A stretch of DNA of 64,000 nucleotides. It comes from Holophagales bacterium. GTDB lineage: Bacteria > Acidobacteriota > Thermoanaerobaculia > Multivoradales > Multivoraceae. Below the pieces are notes generated by a model that was not told where the DNA came from, searched no databases, and was given only the letters and a program-made list of their open reading frames with translations. The stretch is taken from the NCBI GenBank assembly GCA_009837885.1, contig VXSP01000013.1, forward strand, positions 1-64,000, read 5' to 3'. The translations under genes were made by a program, and so were the position numbers. Shown piece after piece: positions 6,764-64,000 of this stretch (its first letter is position 1; each line of letters opens with the position of its first letter).

Positions 6764-9172
6764 TCAACCGTCGGCCAGCAGCTCCTGGCCGCGAGCCACC
6801 GCCTGTCGCTCTTCGGCGGGCCGGCCAAGCCGGTTGAGGATGTCGGCTAGCACGAAGTACCCGAGTGCGCCGTCCCGTCCCGTCGGCTCGAAATCGAGCC
6901 CCTTGCGGGCGATCGACTCGGCCTCTCCCAGGTCGCCGCCCTGGTCCATCAGTGCCTTTGCCAGGTGGAAGTAGCCGCGGGCGAAGTCTGGCGCCGCCTC
7001 GACCGCGTCCCTGTAAGCCTCGATCTCTTCGCGAGGCTGGTTCAGCCGGCCGTGGAGGCGGCCCAGGTTGAAGCGCGGACGGTGGTCGCGCGGCCGAAGT
7101 TCGGCCGCGCGCTCGTACGTCGCCACGGCTTCGAGCGGTTTGCCCGCCTCGTCGAGGAGGACGGCCAGGTTGTAGTGGGCCTCGCCGAGTTCGGGGTTTG
7201 AGGCGAGAGCCTGGCGAAACTTCGTTTCCGCCTCGCCTCTGCGGCCGAGAAGCGCCATGACTTCGCCCAGCTTGTTCGTGACGACCGGCGGCGGTTCGCG
7301 ACCCTCGGTTGCGGCCGCGAGGACCTCTTCGGCCTGGCTCAGCTCGCCCCGGTCAACGTGGATGCGGGCCAGGGCCATCGTCGCCTTCGAGTCCTGGCCG
7401 GCGACATCGAGCAGGCGCCGGTAGCCGACCATCGCCTCGTCGATCCGGCCCAGCTCGCCGTACGCGTTGGCCAACCCGAGCAGGGACTGCCGGTGCTCGG
7501 GGTCGAGCGCCAGCGCGCTCTGGAAGTGGCCGATCGCCGGTTCCGGGTCGCCGGCAAGGAGCGTGATCGTGCCCAGAAGCTGGTGCGCGTCGAGTAGCCC
7601 TTCGTCCTCGGACAGCGCGGCCCGCAGTTCGGCCGCGGCGGCCTCGTTATCGCCGCTGCCGAAGGCGCTCTGCGCCCGCATGATCGCGCGGTGGAGATGC
7701 GCCTTCGTCTTGGGGTCGGCGCGTGGCCCATCGGTTGAGCTTCGCTCGGCGGCGCCACGGCCGGCCAGGTACCCCAGGGCCCGCAACTGCGACAGCGCCT
7801 CTTCGTCCAGGTCGGGCTCGGGCGCCGCCTCGGGCGCCGCGCTGTCGAGTTCCGCCGCCAGCTCCAGGGCCGCGGCCCTCAGTTCCCGCGAGACGTCGCG
7901 CCGTTCGAGCAGGACGTTCGTCAACTCGTTCGGATCCTCCAGCAGCGCGTAGAGCTCCGGATCAGGCGTGTCGACGTACTTGTAGCCGGCCGTACGGAAT
8001 GAGCGAAGCGGCGCCCAGCCGTAGTGGTCGAGCGCGTAGAAGGACTCGGCGTAGACGCCACGTTCGGCGAGGGGATTCGGCAGTCCCTGCATATCCGGGA
8101 GCAGACTCCGGCCCTGGGCCGCGCCAGCTCCGCCGAGGTCCAGAAGCTCGATCAGGGTCGGCGAGATGTCGACGTGGCTCACGGCGTCATCGACGACCCG
8201 GCCCGCCTCGACGCCGCCGGGTAGCCGGACGATGAGCGGCACGTGGACCGTGGAGTCGTAGACGAAGAAGCCGTGGTAGCTCTCGCCGTGGTCGCCGAGT
8301 CCCTCGCCGTGGTCCGACGTCAGCACGACGACCAACTCGTCGAACAGGCCACGCTCCTCGAGCGCGGCGCGAAACTCGCCGATCAGAGAGTCCGTGTACG
8401 CCACCTCGCCATCGTAGGGTCGCCCCTCGTACTCGGACCGGAAGGGTTCGGGTGGCTCGTACGGATCGTGCGGATCGAACAGGTGCAACCACATGAAGAA
8501 GGGCGGCTGCCCTGTCGCGCCGCCGGCTTCGTCGGCGCGGCCGGCGGAAAGGCCGGCTTCATCGAGCCACTCCAGCGCGTGCCCGATCGTCTCCGGACCG
8601 GCCCGCTGGACCGAGCCCAGGTTGGCGCCTGCCATCGCGTCGAGGTCGAAGTCGTCGACGTAGGTGTCGAAGCCGCGGGCGATCCCCCAGCGCGCGTCGA
8701 GCACGAAGGCGCTGACGAAACCACCGGTTCGATAGCCCGCGTCCCGGAACCGCTCGGCGATGGTCACGAGCTCGGGCGCCAGCACGTAGCCGACGTTCTC
8801 CCGCACCCCATGGGACGGCGGATAGAGCCCGGTCATGATCGAACTGTGGGCCGGCAACGTGAAGGGCACCGTCGACGACGCGTTGGCGAAGCGGACGCCC
8901 TCCGCCGCCAGACGGTCGAGGTGCGGCGTCGCGACGCGGTCCGAGCCGTAGCTCGACAGCCGGTCGGCCCGCAGCGTGTCGATCGTGATCAGGATGACCG
9001 AGGGCTGCTCCGTCGACGCTCTGCCCAGCAGGTGCTCGACGTCCGCCTGGACCGGCGACGGCGCCGCGTCCTCCGGCTCCGGTCCGCAGCCGGCAAGGAC
9101 CAGCGCCAGCGCGCACGCCGGCACGAGGACCCGGAGGGCCGCGCTACAGCCAGCGGCGGACGCGCTTCGCAT
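6764..9172 (-). CDS. Alkaline-phosphatase/sulfatase-superfamily hydrolase with C-terminal TPR repeats (lipoprotein)
   Basis: Lipobox LALVLAGCGPE; VILITIDTLRADRLSSYG; LPAHSSIMTGLYPPSHGV; TSDHGEGLGDHGE; then multiple TPR repeats. Confidence 0.92.
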   Translation of the reverse strand: MRSASAAGCSAALRVLVPACALALVLAGCGPEPEDAAPSPVQADVEHLLGRASTEQPSVILITIDTLRADRLSSYGSDRVATPHLDRLAAEGVRFANASSTVPFTLPAHSSIMTGLYPPSHGVRENVGYVLAPELVTIAERFRDAGYRTGGFVSAFVLDARWGIARGFDTYVDDFDLDAMAGANLGSVQRAGPETIGHALEWLDEAGLSAGRADEAGGATGQPPFFMWLHLFDPHDPYEPPEPFRSEYEGRPYDGEVAYTDSLIGEFRAALEERGLFDELVVVLTSDHGEGLGDHGESYHGFFVYDSTVHVPLIVRLPGGVEAGRVVDDAVSHVDISPTLIELLDLGGAGAAQGRSLLPDMQGLPNPLAERGVYAESFYALDHYGWAPLRSFRTAGYKYVDTPDPELYALLEDPNELTNVLLERRDVSRELRAAALELAAELDSAAPEAAPEPDLDEEALSQLRALGYLAGRGAAERSSTDGPRADPKTKAHLHRAIMRAQSAFGSGDNEAAAAELRAALSEDEGLLDAHQLLGTITLLAGDPEPAIGHFQSALALDPEHRQSLLGLANAYGELGRIDEAMVGYRRLLDVAGQDSKATMALARIHVDRGELSQAEEVLAAATEGREPPPVVTNKLGEVMALLGRRGEAETKFRQALASNPELGEAHYNLAVLLDEAGKPLEAVATYERAAELRPRDHRPRFNLGRLHGRLNQPREEIEAYRDAVEAAPDFARGYFHLAKALMDQGGDLGEAESIARKGLDFEPTGRDGALGYFVLADILNRLGRPAEERQAVARGQELLADG

Positions 9173-10619: not shown

Positions 10620-11942
10620 ATGAGCAGCGACTGGTTCTACAAGTTCGACACCCTGTCCCTTCACGCCGGTCAACGGCCCGACCCGACCACCGGAGCGCGC
10701 GCCGTGCCGGTGTACAACTCGACGTCGTACGTGTTCCGGGACACGGACCACGCCGCCGGGCTGTTCAACCTGGAGGAGGCCGGGCACATCTACTCGCGCA
10801 TCTCCAATCCGACGGTCGCGGTCTTCGAGGAACGGATCGCCGCGCTCGAGGGCGGAGTCGGCGCGGTGGCCACCGCTTCCGGGCAGTCGGCGTTCCACCT
10901 GGCGGCGGCGACGATTCTCTCCGCCGGCGACCACGTCGTCTCCTCGGCGGCCATCTACGGCGGTACGCACAACCTGCTGAACCACACGCTGCGCCGGTTC
11001 GGCATCGAGACGACCTTCGTCGAACCGACCGAGCCCGCGAACTTCCGGCGCGCCGCCCGTCCGAACACCAAGCTGTTCTTCGGCGAGACGATCGGCAACC
11101 CGCGGATCGACGTCCTGGACATCCCCGCTGTCGCCACGATCGCCCACGAGATCGGCGTACCGTTGCTCATCGACAACACGTTCGGAACACCGTTCCTGTC
11201 GAGGCCGATCGATCTCGGCGCGGACCTTGTGATGCACTCGGCGACCAAGTTCATCGGCGGCCACGGCGTCACCCTGGGAGGCGTCCTGGTAGACAGCGGC
11301 AAGTTCGACTGGGCCGCCACCGGGCGCTTCCCGATCATGACCGAGCCCTGTCCGGGCTACCACGGCATCGCCTTCGCCGAGCACTACGGCCCGCCGGCCT
11401 TCATCCTCAAGGCGAGGCTCGAAGGACTGCGCGACTTCGGCGCCTGCCTCAACCCGCAGGCCGCGTTCTACCTGCTCCAGGGGCTGGAGACCCTGCCGCT
11501 CCGGGTCGCCCGCCATGTTGAGAACGCGCGGGCGGTCGCCGAGTTCCTCGAGCAGCACGAGGCGGTCGAGTGGGTGAGCTACCCCGACCTGCCCAGTCAC
11601 CCGCAGCATGACCTCGCCCGGAAGCTGCTGCCAAACGGCAGCGGCGCCCTGCTGACCTTCGGGATTCGGGGCGGACTCGAGGCCGGGATCGCCTTCATCG
11701 AGGGTCTTGAGCTCTGGTCGCACCTCGCCAACGTCGGCGACGCCAAGAGCCTGGTCATTCACCCGGCGAGCACGACGCACCAGCAGATGACTGCCGAAGA
11801 GCTCGCCGAGTCGGGCGTCACCCAGGAGATGGTGCGGCTGTCGGTCGGGCTCGAGGATCCCCAGGACCTCGTGGCCGATCTCGACCGGGCCCTGAAACGC
11901 TCGCAGAGACGGGCGCAGCGACCGCGGGCGGTGGCCTCCTGA
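10620..11942 (+). CDS. metY: O-acetylhomocysteine aminocarboxypropyltransferase / cysteine synthase family
   Basis: ATG at 10620; FDTLSLHAGQRPDPTTGARAVPVYNSTSYVF...SATKFIGGHGVTLGG PLP-lysine motif. Confidence 0.93.
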   Translation: MSSDWFYKFDTLSLHAGQRPDPTTGARAVPVYNSTSYVFRDTDHAAGLFNLEEAGHIYSRISNPTVAVFEERIAALEGGVGAVATASGQSAFHLAAATILSAGDHVVSSAAIYGGTHNLLNHTLRRFGIETTFVEPTEPANFRRAARPNTKLFFGETIGNPRIDVLDIPAVATIAHEIGVPLLIDNTFGTPFLSRPIDLGADLVMHSATKFIGGHGVTLGGVLVDSGKFDWAATGRFPIMTEPCPGYHGIAFAEHYGPPAFILKARLEGLRDFGACLNPQAAFYLLQGLETLPLRVARHVENARAVAEFLEQHEAVEWVSYPDLPSHPQHDLARKLLPNGSGALLTFGIRGGLEAGIAFIEGLELWSHLANVGDAKSLVIHPASTTHQQMTAEELAESGVTQEMVRLSVGLEDPQDLVADLDRALKRSQRRAQRPRAVAS

Positions 11943-56898: not shown

Positions 56899-59088
56899 GT
56901 GAGCCCCGCACGATCCAGCACCGAGCTTCCGGCGACAAGACCCGCCGGACGCGTAGCGGTCCTGCTGCCATGCCTCAACGAGGAAGCGACGATCGGCAGT
57001 GTGGTGGGCCAGTTTCACACCGCCCTGCCCGAGGCGTCCATCTACGTCTGCGACAACGGATCGGAAGATGGCACCGCCGAGGCCGCCCGTAGAGCCGGCG
57101 CCGAGGTCCTCCTCGAGGAGGAACGCGGCAAGGGCCGGGCCGTCCGCCGCCTGTTTCGCGAGGTCGACGCCGACGTCTACCTGATCGCCGACGGCGACGG
57201 CACCTACGACGCCGCCAGCGCCCAACGTCTCGTCTCCACCCTGGCCGGCCGCTACCTGGACATGGTCGTGGCGGTCCGCCGGAGCACGGAGCCCGGCGCC
57301 TACACGCTGGTCCGGCGCTTCGGCAACCGGCTGTTCAGCCTGCTCGCCTGGTGGCGCTGCCACCGGACGGTGCGGGACCTGCTCTCCGGCTACCGGGCCT
57401 TCTCCCGCCGGTACGTCGACGCCTTCCCCGCCCGCTCGGACGGCTTCGAGGTCGAGACCGAGATGACCCTGTTCGCCGCCTCGGCGGGCATGGCCTGGGA
57501 CGAGATCGAGTGCCTCTACTTCGCCCGCCCGCAAGGGTCGCGAAGCAAACTGCACGCCTTCCGGGACGGTTTCCGCATCCTCCGAACGCTGCTCTGGATG
57601 CCTGCCGCGGCCGCCGGTGAGCGTCGCCTCGGCGGGTTGCGGGCCGCCGTCCTGGTGGCCGCGGTGACGATCGTCGCCACTGCGCTCTTCCTGGCCATGA
57701 ACTGGCTCGCGGTTAGCGGCGATCCAGAGCCCGTCGCCGACGCTCTACGGGCCTCGCTCGAGCACCCCGACCGCACGCTCGAGGACTCCGCCGAGCGCTT
57801 CAACGACTGCCTGCTGAGCCTGATGGCGCTCGACCGCGGCGGAACGCTGGTCGAACGCACCGTCTCACCCCGGCGCGTGTACCGCTATACGCGGCCCCAG
57901 CGACCCTGCGACGCCCTCGAGCAGCGCCTGAGCGAGGGCGCGGTGGACGATTCGGACTACCTGACCGTCTTCTACCACCAGTACTGGGCCGGCCAGCGGG
58001 TGATGCTGCAGTGGCTGCTGCCGCCACTCGGCGTCGATGGCCTGAGGCGTATGCTGCGGGTGCTGACGTTCGGCCTGCTCGGGCTCGGGTTCTTCGCCGC
58101 ACTGACGCGCTCGGTCCTGCTCTTCACCGGGCGCGAGCCCGAGGGCGGTTCTCACGAGAGCGACGGCGACTCGAAACGCTGGCGCGAGAACCTCTTCCAG
58201 GCGATAGCCCTCGCCGCGCTCTTCCTCTGCCTGTTCCTGTTCCTCGACCTGGATCGTCGCGCCGGGAGTTTCACCACCGGCGCCTCGAACGTACTGACCC
58301 TCGCCCTGCTCATTGCCGTGCCCGTGCTAGGGATCGCCAACTGGAAACCGGGACGCCAGGTCCTCCTCTTCGCCGGGTTCGGCGCCGCGATCGCCTACCA
58401 CGAGCTTCTCTTCGGCAGCGCCTTGATCGGGCTGGCCTGCGTGCTCCTCGCACTCGCCACGGCGCCGCCCCCCGCCCAGGCCACGGTCGCGGTCGCGCGC
58501 GACTGGTGGCGCGCCCTCTACTTGCGCTGCGGCGGCGCCTACGCCAGTTGCCTGAGCGCCGTCTTCCTGCTCCGCGTCGTGATCGCCGAGTTCGTGTTCC
58601 AGGAGCCGGTGCTGTTCAAGTTCTGGGACCAGCTCACGCACCGGCTCTACGGAGCGTCCCGCAGCTCGATCCACCCGGACATCGACCCCTTCTACGCCTC
58701 CCGGCCCACCGTGGAGAGGTTCCTCGAACGGGTCGGGAACAACCTCGGCACCGTCGGTTTCGGTTCGAGCGCCGTCGCCTTCATCCTGATCGGCGGCGCC
58801 GCGCTGACCCTGGTCGCCGGCACCGTCTTCGTCCTGCAGAAGCGGCGTTCCCTGGAAGAGCCCTGGCGCTGGCTCGGCATCCTCGCCGCCGGATGGTGCG
58901 TCCCCGCGTGGTTCGTCGTCTTCTCCGCCCACACGATGGCGCACGTCCCGGTGATCGTCCGCCTGCTGGCGCTGCCCTACGCGGCGGCGGCGATCCTGAT
59001 CGTGGGCGTGGCGGTGTTCGGCCGGCGGTCTGTGGTCATTGGAAATCTCGGAGTCGAGACAGGGGAAATCTCGGAGTCGGAAAGCTGA
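56899..59088 (+). CDS. Glycosyltransferase family 2 with C-terminal multi-spanning membrane region
   Basis: VAVLLPCLNEEATIGSVVGQF; CDNGSEDGTAEAARRAGAEVLLEEERGKGRAVRRLF; YLIADGDGTYDAASA; many hydrophobic segments. Confidence 0.9.
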   Translation: MSPARSSTELPATRPAGRVAVLLPCLNEEATIGSVVGQFHTALPEASIYVCDNGSEDGTAEAARRAGAEVLLEEERGKGRAVRRLFREVDADVYLIADGDGTYDAASAQRLVSTLAGRYLDMVVAVRRSTEPGAYTLVRRFGNRLFSLLAWWRCHRTVRDLLSGYRAFSRRYVDAFPARSDGFEVETEMTLFAASAGMAWDEIECLYFARPQGSRSKLHAFRDGFRILRTLLWMPAAAAGERRLGGLRAAVLVAAVTIVATALFLAMNWLAVSGDPEPVADALRASLEHPDRTLEDSAERFNDCLLSLMALDRGGTLVERTVSPRRVYRYTRPQRPCDALEQRLSEGAVDDSDYLTVFYHQYWAGQRVMLQWLLPPLGVDGLRRMLRVLTFGLLGLGFFAALTRSVLLFTGREPEGGSHESDGDSKRWRENLFQAIALAALFLCLFLFLDLDRRAGSFTTGASNVLTLALLIAVPVLGIANWKPGRQVLLFAGFGAAIAYHELLFGSALIGLACVLLALATAPPPAQATVAVARDWWRALYLRCGGAYASCLSAVFLLRVVIAEFVFQEPVLFKFWDQLTHRLYGASRSSIHPDIDPFYASRPTVERFLERVGNNLGTVGFGSSAVAFILIGGAALTLVAGTVFVLQKRRSLEEPWRWLGILAAGWCVPAWFVVFSAHTMAHVPVIVRLLALPYAAAAILIVGVAVFGRRSVVIGNLGVETGEISESES

Positions 59089-59126
59089 AATCTCGAAGTC
59101 GAGAGAGAAGGAATCTCGAAGTCGGG
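59042..59126 (+). repeat. Four short direct repeats GAAATCTCGRAGTCG
   Basis: GAAATCTCGGAGTCGA, GGAAATCTCGGAGTCGG, TGAAATCTCGAAGTCGA, GGAATCTCGAAGTCGGG at ~22-24 bp spacing, spanning the GT2 stop codon. Confidence 0.75.
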
Positions 59127-59164
59127 CGACCGGAACATGCGGGATAGGATCGCGCCGATCAACG

Positions 59165-59449
59165 ATGACCCGACCAGTCGAAGTCGAACCGCGCAAGGGA
59201 TTCAGGCTCTGGCTCCGATTCTCGGACGGTGCCGAGGGAGTCGTTGACCTCTCCCGTCTTGCCGGCAGGGGCGTTTTCCGGTGCTGGGACGCCGCGGACA
59301 TCTTCGACGCGGTACGTGTGGCCAAGCATGGCTCCGTCGTGTGGGGCGACGACGTGGAGCTATGCCCCGACGCGCTGTATCTCCAGGTCACCGGAAAGGC
59401 GGTCGACGAACTGATGCCAGGAGCTGCTCATCGCGTGCACGATGCCTGA
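59165..59449 (+). CDS. DUF2442 domain protein
   Basis: VEVEPRKGFRLWLRFSDGAEGVVDLSRLAGRGVFRCWDAADIFDAVRV...SVVWGDDVELCPDALYLQ. Confidence 0.82.
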   Translation: MTRPVEVEPRKGFRLWLRFSDGAEGVVDLSRLAGRGVFRCWDAADIFDAVRVAKHGSVVWGDDVELCPDALYLQVTGKAVDELMPGAAHRVHDA

Positions 59450-59702
59450 GCTTTGCCGCTTCTACGGGATCATCATCCGTCTGTACTTCGACGACCACGC
59501 GCCGCCTCACTTTCACGCCAGCTACGGTGGAGATGAGGCCGTCGTGGAGATCGCTACGCTTGCCGTGATTCACGGATACCTTCCGAATCGCGCACGAGGC
59601 CTCGTTCGCGAATGGGCGCTGTTGCACCAAGAGGAACTCCACGAGGCCTGGACGAAAGCGAAGCAACTCCAGCCGCCGGGGAAGATCGACCCTCTGCCGT
59701 AG
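59442..59702 (+). CDS. DUF4160 domain protein
   Basis: MPELCRFYGIIIRLYFDDHAPPHFHASYGGDEAVVEI; 8-bp overlap with DUF2442 gene. Confidence 0.85.
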   Translation: MPELCRFYGIIIRLYFDDHAPPHFHASYGGDEAVVEIATLAVIHGYLPNRARGLVREWALLHQEELHEAWTKAKQLQPPGKIDPLP

Positions 59703-59723
59703 ACCACTCACGAGAAACACTGC

Positions 59724-62444
59724 ATGCCATCCGAGCTGCCGGACACGATCCGGCCACTGCTTCAGCCAACCGAGCGCTTGACCTCACTCAGGCTCTGGCG
59801 GGCCCTAACGGGGGATGACCGCGCAAGAGCTGCAAGCGTGGCTCTCGCGTCGGACGAGACCGCCCATCGCGCGGCCCTGATCCGAGCCGTTTCCAGCGCA
59901 AAGAACTTCCGGCCCAAGACGGTCGAGAGGTGGCCCGACCAGAAGATCGCCAACGAGGTGCGTGCACCCATGCTCGCCGACGCCGCGCTGGCAAACCGCC
60001 TGCTCGAGGCCTTCGGCGAGGGCGGCTACCCGGAAGTGCATGCCGAGTTCGAGGAGCGAATCGCCCGGAACGAGGACGGTGAGGTTTCCGACGAAGCAGC
60101 GCGAGAAACAGCTACCCACCTGGTCGACCGGTTTGGTGAGAGGGATGCGATCGTCTTTCTCTTGACCACCAGCCTCGCCGACCGTCCGCTGGCACGGGCC
60201 CTGCGCGGCTGGTTCGCCGACTTCGAGGTCGAAGCTGACCAAGAGCCGTCCACGACCGAAGAAGCGCCCGAAAAAGACGACGCCGAAGACGACACGTCTG
60301 AAACTGGCCAGGAGCCCGATCGCCAAGAGGAGTTCACGACCCTCGACCGTCTCCTGATCCTGGCGGCCGTGGATGCAAGGCAGGACGTTCTGGGAGCCGA
60401 GCGTGAAGATGCAATCGACGACGCAGTCGGCGAGTTGCTTCAACTCAGCGGGCGCCGTCATCGGTCCTACTTCCACGTGGGCTTTAGGGATGCCCTGTTC
60501 AACCGTCCCTTGGGTGAGGAGATCCCAGCCGAGAACGAGGCTCGACTTCGCTGGTACTGGAACGGTGCGATTCAGGGGCTCGCTCGAACCAAGTCCTGGG
60601 AGCGAATCGTCAGCGTCTACAACGACAAGGCCCCGGTAAAGGAGCTGGGAAACGGCGAAGACGCGCCCTCCCGTCAGGCCGCACGCCACATAGTGACCGC
60701 CCTAGAGCAGCAGGGACGATGGTTCGAGATCCCCGACTTCTTGCAGCCGCGGGGCGTGACCCCGGATTTGTTCTCTTCAATCCTGAGCACGGCCGCGCAA
60801 CTACTGAGAGACGACGTTCGTGCCTCGCGGGTTCAGCCGTTGCTGGACATCCTCGATCAGGCACGGCCTCGCCTTCAGCGAGCTAGGGGAAGGCCCAGGA
60901 ACTTCCATCTGTTCATCGCGGCTGATCGGTGCGTGGCTCGCTGCCTGCAGCAGCTTGGCGAGTTCGACGCTGCGCGTCGCCGGCTGCGGGATGCTGTTCG
61001 TTCTGCGGACAGTCGTCCCGGCCTCACGGCAGCCCTGGAGACGGATCTCGGCCTAGTAGAGGGTGCGTTTCGCTCCCTAGCAGACGTTCAACTGCCACAC
61101 GATTCAGGCGATCTGGACTCTTTCGCCAGCCGACTGCGAGGCACCAAGCGGCGCTTCGAGCCAGCGCGCGGAAGCGGGGTTCACGGCCCCGCCCGCTACT
61201 GTCTTGGGGTCCTCGAGTTGATTGCCGGCGACTATGAGGCCGCCGACCGTCACTTCGGGAGAGCCAGAGGACTTCTCCAACGGAACCCTGCCCGATTCTC
61301 GCCCGACGCGTATCCTCCCGAGTTCCTCGCCCGCATTGGTCTCTACGAGGGAATCGCCAAGCTTCTGGCGGCGCCAACGGACGACCGGCTGGTGCACGCT
61401 GCGGACCTGCTCACGGACAGCCTGAAGGAAGGCGGTCGAGTTCCGCGGTACTTTGTCGAGAAGGTGTGTGAACACCTCAGTCTCGCGCCTAGCGGGAGCA
61501 GCGAGCCGGTCCTGCTCGCCCTTCTGGAAGAGGCTGACGATCACCTTCTCGACACGTTGGTTGGGGGGACCAGGGAACCTGCACTCCTGAAACCGCTGGC
61601 GAAGAAGTTCTTGGCGCGGGCCAAGAGACCTGCTCGGGGCAGAGAAGAAGAGGCTGCCGATTACCGGGCCGCACTCGAATGCCACCTTGCGGCCGGTCAG
61701 GAAGGAAGTGCCGAAGCCGCGCTCGACCGCCTTGAGGAACTCGCTTTGGAAGGCACTGGCGCAAACGAGTTTCTCGCGCTACTCACGACGGAAGACTGCG
61801 GACGGCTACCTTGGCTACCCGAAGAGGCCGCAGTGGCCGTCGCACACGTCCTGGCGAGCCGGGGGAACTACGAAGAGGCCGCGTCAGGGCTAAGGGATCG
61901 CTTCCATCGTTACGCAACGGGGGCCGAGAGTGGTGACCGTGAAGCCCTCGACTCGGCTGCGGGGATCATTGGGCGGATCCGTGGCTACGGCTTGCCAGAG
62001 AAGTGGTGGGCCGACTTGGAGCGTCGGTACAAAGCCATCCGAGCCGAACAGCAACCGTCGGCACCCGACCGCCCGGCGGGGCCAAGGGCAGGCAGGCCCG
62101 TCACTGTCCTTGTCGTCGGAGGGAACGAGATTCAGTCCCGGGATGCCGAACGAGTAAGGCAGAAGGTGTGGCAAGCCGACCCAGGCATCAACGTGGACTT
62201 CGTCCATTCCGGATGGACATCGAACTGGAGCAAGCACCTGGAGGACGTCAAGCACAAGCTGGACAACGGGTGCCATGCCTTGGTCCTGCTCAGGTTCATG
62301 AGAACCCAACTGGGAAGGAAGGTGCGCGCCGAGTGCGGCCGACGCGATGTTCAGTGGCGTTTCTGCTGGAGTGGCGGCCAAAGCGGCATCATCGAGGCTG
62401 TTCATCGCGCCGCGGACGCCGGCAGGCAGGCAGCCCACAGTTGA
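59724..62444 (+). CDS. 906-aa protein of unknown family; mostly helical/TPR-like body, C-terminal DUF2325-like domain
   Basis: Continuous 906-aa ORF with acidic linker (EPSTTEEAPEKDDAEDDTSETGQEPDRQEE); C-terminus VTVLVVGGNEIQSRDAERVRQKV...VDFVHSGWTSNWSKHLEDVKHKLDNGCHALVLLRFMRTQLGRKVRAECGRRDVQWRFCWSGGQSGIIEAV. Confidence 0.82.
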   Translation: MPSELPDTIRPLLQPTERLTSLRLWRALTGDDRARAASVALASDETAHRAALIRAVSSAKNFRPKTVERWPDQKIANEVRAPMLADAALANRLLEAFGEGGYPEVHAEFEERIARNEDGEVSDEAARETATHLVDRFGERDAIVFLLTTSLADRPLARALRGWFADFEVEADQEPSTTEEAPEKDDAEDDTSETGQEPDRQEEFTTLDRLLILAAVDARQDVLGAEREDAIDDAVGELLQLSGRRHRSYFHVGFRDALFNRPLGEEIPAENEARLRWYWNGAIQGLARTKSWERIVSVYNDKAPVKELGNGEDAPSRQAARHIVTALEQQGRWFEIPDFLQPRGVTPDLFSSILSTAAQLLRDDVRASRVQPLLDILDQARPRLQRARGRPRNFHLFIAADRCVARCLQQLGEFDAARRRLRDAVRSADSRPGLTAALETDLGLVEGAFRSLADVQLPHDSGDLDSFASRLRGTKRRFEPARGSGVHGPARYCLGVLELIAGDYEAADRHFGRARGLLQRNPARFSPDAYPPEFLARIGLYEGIAKLLAAPTDDRLVHAADLLTDSLKEGGRVPRYFVEKVCEHLSLAPSGSSEPVLLALLEEADDHLLDTLVGGTREPALLKPLAKKFLARAKRPARGREEEAADYRAALECHLAAGQEGSAEAALDRLEELALEGTGANEFLALLTTEDCGRLPWLPEEAAVAVAHVLASRGNYEEAASGLRDRFHRYATGAESGDREALDSAAGIIGRIRGYGLPEKWWADLERRYKAIRAEQQPSAPDRPAGPRAGRPVTVLVVGGNEIQSRDAERVRQKVWQADPGINVDFVHSGWTSNWSKHLEDVKHKLDNGCHALVLLRFMRTQLGRKVRAECGRRDVQWRFCWSGGQSGIIEAVHRAADAGRQAAHS

Positions 62445-62648
62445 CCCGCGGCTGCCCGCCTCAGGCCGGTCCCAAGCCATCCCTCTGGACCCGGCAATAA
62501 GTCGTGAGTCACTCCAGCCCAGCCAGTTGCCAGGTCCGCGAGAGCGCGCCTGTGCCGGCCGAAGGCTCGTGCCCGCGGGATTGGGCAGTTAGACCTCGCC
62601 CTCACGCCGATCAGGACTGGCCAAGCCGTCGGAGGAGCCGTGGATCAC

Positions 62649-63329
62649 CTATCTTCTTCTAGCAAAGAAAGCGAGGAACGCCGGGAAACAGAGGGCTCCA
62701 AGGACAACCATCACAAACGTACCGAGGGTCAAGAACTCAAAGCCATCGCGGGCCTTTCTGCCTATCCAACTATCGAACGCATCCACCTTCGGGGAGGAGC
62801 GGTACTGCCTTGAGCGGACATACTCGTTCAGTCGTTCTGTACGCCATGCATACGCCGCAGCGTCATGTGCTTTGAGCGCTTCTTTGGCACTGACAGGTGG
62901 GAAGTACTGAAGCTGGTTGTTTCGGGTCGACCGTAGTCCTCGTTCAGTGGTCTCTTGGGCCGCAAGGCTCAGCCGATAGGCACGGTCGTTCTCGCGAAGC
63001 TCATGCGCAAGTCGTGCCGCCTCAAGTGCTTTCGCCGCAGCTTGACTAGCGCTACGCCATGCGTCCTCACGATCTTTCGTTGTAGTTCCGACATCTAGAC
63101 GCACTGCCTCATATCTCTCAAGAACCAACGACGCCAGTCGATGCTGGTTGGCGGCTCTTGCACAGCTATGTTCGTAGTCGGCACAGGCTGCGGTGAACAA
63201 TAGAGTCGCGAGGATCGCCACACCGACCCTACAGAGATCGGCTCCGGGAACGGAGGTGGGCCCGCCTGCGTCGGAGTTCCCTCCCCGACGACTTGTCTCG
63301 CGAGCGGAGTGCCGCGCGTTCCCCGTCAT
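62649..63329 (-). CDS. Hypothetical membrane protein
   Basis: N-terminal hydrophobic segment VGVAILATLLFTAAC and C-terminal TM FVMVVLGALCFPAFLAFFARRR; helical middle. Confidence 0.65.
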   Translation of the reverse strand: MTGNARHSARETSRRGGNSDAGGPTSVPGADLCRVGVAILATLLFTAACADYEHSCARAANQHRLASLVLERYEAVRLDVGTTTKDREDAWRSASQAAAKALEAARLAHELRENDRAYRLSLAAQETTERGLRSTRNNQLQYFPPVSAKEALKAHDAAAYAWRTERLNEYVRSRQYRSSPKVDAFDSWIGRKARDGFEFLTLGTFVMVVLGALCFPAFLAFFARRR

Positions 63330-63450
63330 GGCCGTTACCCTACTCTCGACCTCGGGCAGCCGGTCGGTCTAGTTGCGCGACCCTCCGCAACTCCGACCAG
63401 CGGGGCGTCGACCTCGGAGTCGCCAACGTCCGTGTCGCGGTCGAGCCTAG

Positions 63451-63669
63451 TCAGTCATCGCCCTTCCCGCGCGCAGCCTGTCGTGCTTCGGGCCGCTCTA
63501 CACTTGAACACCCAGTGACGACCTCCCGCGCTACCTCCTCTAGAGTGTGAACTCGCCCGGCGTCGAGGTCCTCATACCCCTCGCCCAGAAGGCGTTTGCC
63601 TTCCTCGCTGAGGCTCTCATCGTCCTCGGGCGCTTCCATCAGATGTTTGGAGAACGCTCGCGCAGTCAT
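63451..63669 (-). CDS. Small antitoxin-like protein
   Basis: APEDDESLSEEGKRLLGEGYEDLDAGRVHTLEEVAREV resembles C-terminal regions of small antitoxin proteins. Confidence 0.45.
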   Translation of the reverse strand: MTARAFSKHLMEAPEDDESLSEEGKRLLGEGYEDLDAGRVHTLEEVAREVVTGCSSVERPEARQAARGKGDD

Positions 63670-63794
63670 CGCCTCGCCTCCCGAAGTACGCCCGCCTGCA
63701 CCATGGTCAGCAACGCTGAGAGGTGCGTCTTGCCTTCGCCGATCTTCACGTAGCGAGTCAACTTCTCAGTTGGCAGCGACGAACCAGACTCCGC

Positions 63795-63998
63795 CTACGA
63801 AGCTTCGTCGTCTTCGTACAACGCCGGATCCGGGTCGACCTCCACCATCTTGCCGTTCTCCACGACGAGGACGCCCGTGCCGTGCCGATGAGCATCCCGG
63901 TGCGCGCGACGGACGGCCCGCTCCATCGCCGCGGGTACCGCCTGCATGTCGGGATCGTCGAGCTTCAACACGGGAAGCCGTTCTTTCGCCGCGCTCAC
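63795..63998 (-). CDS. Small hypothetical protein (may extend past the right edge)
   Basis: MSAAKERLPVLKLDDPDMQAVPAAMERAVRRAHRDAHRHGTGVLVVENGKMVEVDPDPALYEDDEAS. Confidence 0.45.
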   Translation of the reverse strand: MSAAKERLPVLKLDDPDMQAVPAAMERAVRRAHRDAHRHGTGVLVVENGKMVEVDPDPALYEDDEAS

Positions 63999-64000
63999 TG

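Follow-up and report, generated by a model that had tools for sequence, protein, structure and literature searches.

An undescribed family of TPR-like proteins with a divergent DUF2325-like tail, a candidate for a role in bacterial defence

The stretch of Holophagales bacterium DNA analysed here (hereafter the window; 64,000 nucleotides, contig VXSP01000013.1, positions 1–64,000) carries close to its right end a long reading frame for a 906-residue protein, P0001, and raises the question of what this protein is and what it does there. The frame opens with ATG and contains no internal stops. Searches against Pfam, NCBIfam, PADLOC and PDB sequences returned no match above cut-off, and no curated family covers the protein; the sole PADLOC match was a chance-level one to type IIG (E 0.01 over 30 residues), and the PDB held no significant sequence relative. 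Judged by its relatives, the frame is not due to chance, because proteins of similar length and domain order, 20–37% identical to it, occur in four phyla. Our preferred reading, to which we assign a probability of about 0.5, is that P0001 is a horizontally acquired member of an undescribed and unnamed defence-associated family, with a TPR body and a tail that binds a nucleotide-like ligand. Although the family is undescribed, both its TPR scaffold and its Rossmannoid tail belong to known kinds.

Table 1. Features of the P0001 locus, in window coordinates
Feature	Coordinates	Strand	Basis
Part of ~7.0-kb accessory insert inside the window (insert runs to contig position 66065)	59080..64000	.	comparison with genome G117
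DUF2442 protein, DhiA-antitoxin-like	59165..59449	+	profile search; inside insert
DUF4160 protein, DhiT-toxin-like	59442..59702	+	profile search; ends 21 bp before the 906-aa gene
906-aa family protein (P0001): N-domain, acidic linker, TPR superhelix, DUF2325-like tail	59724..62444	+	ORF, relatives, AlphaFold2 model
N-domain, residues 1–172, all-helical	59724..60239	+	predicted model and phylum search
Acidic disordered linker, residues 173–204, pLDDT below 50	60240..60335	+	sequence and predicted model
TPR-like superhelix, residues 205–776	60336..62051	+	predicted model, Foldseek, alignment
DUF2325-like Rossmannoid domain, residues 792–906	62097..62441	+	predicted model, fold search, alignment

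An AlphaFold2 model built from a 25-sequence alignment of relatives (mean pLDDT 84.3, pTM 0.60) predicts helix throughout residues 1–776, apart from the disordered acidic stretch, where pLDDT falls below 50 at residues 173–201. A second linker of low confidence (779–788) leads into four beta-alpha units at 793–905, and the tail modelled alone reaches pLDDT 92.5 and pTM 0.87. Foldseek matched the whole model to SPINDLY, O-GlcNAc transferase and like TPR superhelices; by this search and a confident predicted model, the body is a TPR superhelix. The sequence-only reading had proposed just such an architecture, a long helical TPR-like body with an acidic linker and a compact Rossmann-like end, and the C-terminal string that it quoted is present in the translation. 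Six body residues form an invariant patch in the 25-row alignment (D208, R245, S248, H251, G253 and G281). Two candidate assignments in this part of the protein were set aside: a HEPN-like RNase motif (R-x4-6-H) is not claimed for the invariant R245-x5-H251, which the spacing of a TPR first helix fits at least equally and for which HEPN gave no matches, and a wHTH-HSP90_Na-assoc hit at residues 684–730 (E 0.0064; 17.2 bits against a cut-off of 23) was discounted.

The tail had been matched to DUF2325 from its motif layout, and that claim survives as remote homology only, since neither P0001 nor its tail alone gave any PF10087 hit, let alone one above Pfam's gathering cut-off. Among 27 aligned family C-termini, DUF2325 is by far the commonest Pfam match, with PF10087 matching eight, all weakly (best E 6.8e-4); the fourth-best match in the tail fold search is a viral DUF2325 protein (E 6.1e-3); and profile–profile comparison pairs the tail at 97.8% with planctomycete proteins bearing like tails, an indirect link, as two of these proteins themselves have no DUF2325 match. 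We treat the tail as a divergent DUF2325 relative at that remote level, one that may share the fold and register of DUF2325-type domains. Its best viral fold matches also include nucleoside deoxyribosyltransferases, YspA-type SLOG proteins and one TIR protein, all with E above 0.001, and the PDB neighbours are unspecific; because no fold match in either structure set passes E 0.001, the tail's ligand is a guess.

Conservation nevertheless picks out particular parts of the tail, in the motifs GG-x-E, GWxSNW, RFMRTxxGRxxR and PWxxCxGxG. In the 25-row alignment G799, W831, W835, V854, R860, T861, G864, R868 and G885 are invariant, and G800, E802, N834, R857, R865, W878 and C881 nearly so. According to the secondary structure of the model, these residues fall at the C-terminal end of one of the four strands or immediately beyond it, save for V854 and W878, which are inside strands. 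Ligands of Rossmann-like folds bind at the C-terminal strand ends, and the conserved residues of the tail would thus be placed where ligands bind in such folds.

About 30 relatives were recovered, from Gemmatimonadota, Planctomycetota, the protein's own phylum and one actinobacterial plasmid. Searching first 297 and then 396 genomes of the own phylum yielded one further full-length relative, in genome G065, and genome contigs, when scanned, added two planctomycete relatives and one from Gemmatimonadota (Longimicrobiales) that is 37% identical. Profile searches matched in 22 of 395 Gemmatimonadota-phylum genomes and in 21 of 392 planctomycete-phylum genomes, whole-profile coverage being reached in only a handful of the latter. 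The plasmid relative, from Euzebya, was the only one found when plasmids were searched with the G065 protein (locus L012); P0001 and the first alignment, used as queries against plasmids, phages and viral contigs, gave none, and no phage or viral contig was found to carry the family. Residues ~13–170 constitute a separate domain, which also occurs as a stand-alone protein of ~160–220 residues in 74 of the 396 phylum genomes; at L013–L018, L020 and L021 this protein (163–220 residues) lies amid housekeeping genes, with a TerC-like gene adjoining in L017. Planctomycetes further encode TPR proteins of ~715 residues that have a like tail and lack the N-domain (L132, L133, L134, L140 and L137), the first four of them in conserved synteny with housekeeping genes.

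The insert that holds the P0001 gene is flanked by a glycosyltransferase gene (Pfam) and a sulfatase-like gene (named by eye), both conserved in the genus. The near relative G117 aligns at 94–95% DNA identity up to 59079 and again from 66066, and carries 541 unrelated bp in between, which bears out the earlier description of the region as accessory-looking. The place of insertion is a variable site, because the spacing of the two flanking genes differs among relatives (0.14–2.2 kb in eleven of them and 9.9 kb in G160) and they are non-adjacent in several others. In a tree of 25 sequences, P0001 and 11 Gemmatimonadota copies form one group (100/100), from which the G065 copy stands apart on a long branch of unsure placement. 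Because the profile search detected no family member in the 13 other genomes searched from the genus, the site is empty in G117 and P0001 nests among Gemmatimonadota copies, the gene was probably acquired by horizontal transfer.

Within the insert we recognised toxin–antitoxin-like genes and no known defence system, BREX genes included (by reading). The toxin–antitoxin-like genes reported directly upstream of P0001 are identifiable by Pfam: each passes its own Pfam cut-off (DUF2442 or DUF4160), and both fall short of the NCBIfam models (86.9 bits against 100 for DhiT with the DUF4160 protein; 28.7 against 200 for DhiA with the DUF2442 protein). No promoter stood out near the 906-residue gene, and neither a tRNA, an integrase-like ORF (by reading) nor clear terminal repeats were seen at the insert. 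At its left edge (window 59035–59125) are four imperfect tandem copies of a ~23-nt unit with AAATCTCGGAGTCGA. Locus L022 contains two 169-nt copies, 82% identical, in antitoxin-like genes (8521–8689 and 10825–10993; contig C17 63521 and 65825), and between them a Zeta-toxin-like gene with a P-loop-like motif, GPNGGGKPT.

Across the family, genes lie beside restriction and other anti-phage genes more often than expected from control proteins. Defence-type genes occur within three genes of the family gene at 11 of 25 loci, a tally made by eye and with Pfam and not blind, on neighbours called with a simple codon-score caller that leaves their coordinates approximate. These neighbours comprise BREX, GmrSD, DUF499, type I and III restriction, AAA and TOPRIM-like pairs, and TIR. 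The family copy at L012 is followed downstream by BrxA, BrxB and a BrxC-like ATPase, the only BREX genes seen beside a relative. L108 has a DUF499 neighbour. Restriction-type neighbours are found at L104 (two DUF262-type genes, GmrSD being confirmed for one, with a DUF4268/HSDR_N protein and PDDEXK_4), L121 (a SNF2-type helicase and type III R-M) and L123 (HsdR). AAA neighbours occur at L109 (AAA_15 and DUF3226), L023 (AAA_21 and a weakly DUF4276-like protein, whose gene overlaps the family gene by 4 bp) and L026 (8534–17079) on the Euzebya plasmid, where the gene for a 1952-residue AAA_22 protein and the family gene share 1 bp. L127 contributes a TIR gene, L119 a NOV_C gene and L025 an SF1 helicase cluster. 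At both L025 and L139 the family gene sits by an SF1 helicase, an 857-residue protein, and genes judged by eye to be ClpB-like AAA, radical-SAM-like and EVE-like; this cluster may be a separate system.

By a less subjective measure, PADLOC models gave 143 matches (E<=1e-15) to 117 family neighbours and 9 to 119 proteins picked arbitrarily from twelve genomes that carry the family, a ratio that overstates the number of proteins, as the models are redundant and one protein may match many. The neighbour set included one protein added by hand (L023:9363–9962) and excluded four, apparent misread frames at L109 and L110 and one each from L024 and L026. Another control, of 115 proteins at other loci, produced 42 matches, and most of those shown were to generic kinase and helicase models. 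The remaining 14 of the 25 loci have no defence-type gene within three genes, and at L105 and L107 the family gene stands solo amid housekeeping genes. The defence-island setting proposed in the sequence-only reading is supported at the level of the family, whereas the window copy keeps toxin–antitoxin-like company only. That reading had also named core chromosomal homologues with a known non-defence function as evidence against itself, and for the wider superfamily the planctomycete cousins without the N-domain are in part of this kind.

A defence role is the best single reading of these data, and its main rival is that of a TPR protein with a general stress or regulatory function in Gemmatimonadota and Planctomycetota, non-immune and merely carried in variable islands. 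The loci without defence neighbours, the housekeeping synteny of the ~715-residue cousins and the frequency of the stand-alone N-domain protein among housekeeping genes all suit such a protein. It accounts poorly for how strongly matches to defence models near the family proper exceed those of random genes, for the AAA and TOPRIM-like genes that overlap or pack tightly with the family gene at L023 and L109, and for a sporadic presence with transfer, and we regard it as possible at clearly less than even odds.

We think it improbable that the tail acts as a TIR-, nucleoside deoxyribosyltransferase- or SLOG-type catalytic effector, which would cleave NAD+ or a nucleotide after the TPR body has sensed infection. 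The tail's fold neighbours point that way, a fold group for which base release from nucleotides has been proposed in conflict systems (PMC7159879), as does E802, the sole strongly conserved acid of the tail, which follows strand 1 directly and is Glu in 22 of 24 aligned rows. However, a few members, L023 and L026 among them, have another residue in place of E802, the invariant tail residues are basic, aromatic, Thr or Gly, and the fold scores are weak. That P0001 is the third partner of the upstream DUF2442/DUF4160 (DhiA/DhiT-like) pair, with which it shares one strand, one insert and a 21-bp gap, we consider very unlikely: none of the other family members inspected was seen to have the pair next to it, and only L123 has a nearby DUF2442-like protein (by eye), on the opposite strand.

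Under the preferred reading of a defence-associated family, the TPR superhelix would bind a protein partner (a phage protein, a partner ATPase or an effector), the tail would bind a phosphorylated, nucleotide-like ligand through RFMRTxxGRxxR, as a sensor or a nucleotide-cleaving enzyme, and the two together might switch on a response to infection or report it. More tentatively, the protein could be a single-gene or modular anti-phage system, its superhelix sensing infection and its DUF2325-like tail binding or cleaving a nucleotide signal, recruited beside BREX, GmrSD, restriction and TIR genes in several phyla. Should the family prove to be immune, the defence islands of phyla with little experimental sampling would gain an undescribed protein, and DUF2325-type domains, which are annotated as uncharacterised and rarely mentioned in the literature searched, would gain a first role and a testable pocket.

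Among known systems, BREX and the DUF499-centred BREX-related systems adjoin family genes at L012 and L108; the DUF499 family is tied to BREX-related systems, and both kinds of system carry varied accessory genes (PMC12839542). P0001 corresponds to no core BREX component, and most family loci are without BREX. With O-GlcNAc transferase and SPINDLY it shares the superhelical TPR body, but it has no glycosyltransferase domain, and its sequence matches to TPR models all fall below cut-off. The TIR, nucleoside deoxyribosyltransferase and YspA-SLOG Rossmannoid group recurs among the best viral fold neighbours of the tail and resembles it in conserved residues at the C-terminal strand ends, whereas the fold scores stay below significance and a catalytic arrangement in the tail is putative at most. 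DUF2325 (PF10087) and the family tail, as modelled, both show GG-x-E following strand 1 and a four-stranded alpha/beta architecture; RTxxGRxxR and GWxSNW, in contrast, are specific to the family, in which the domain forms one protein with an N-domain and a long TPR body.
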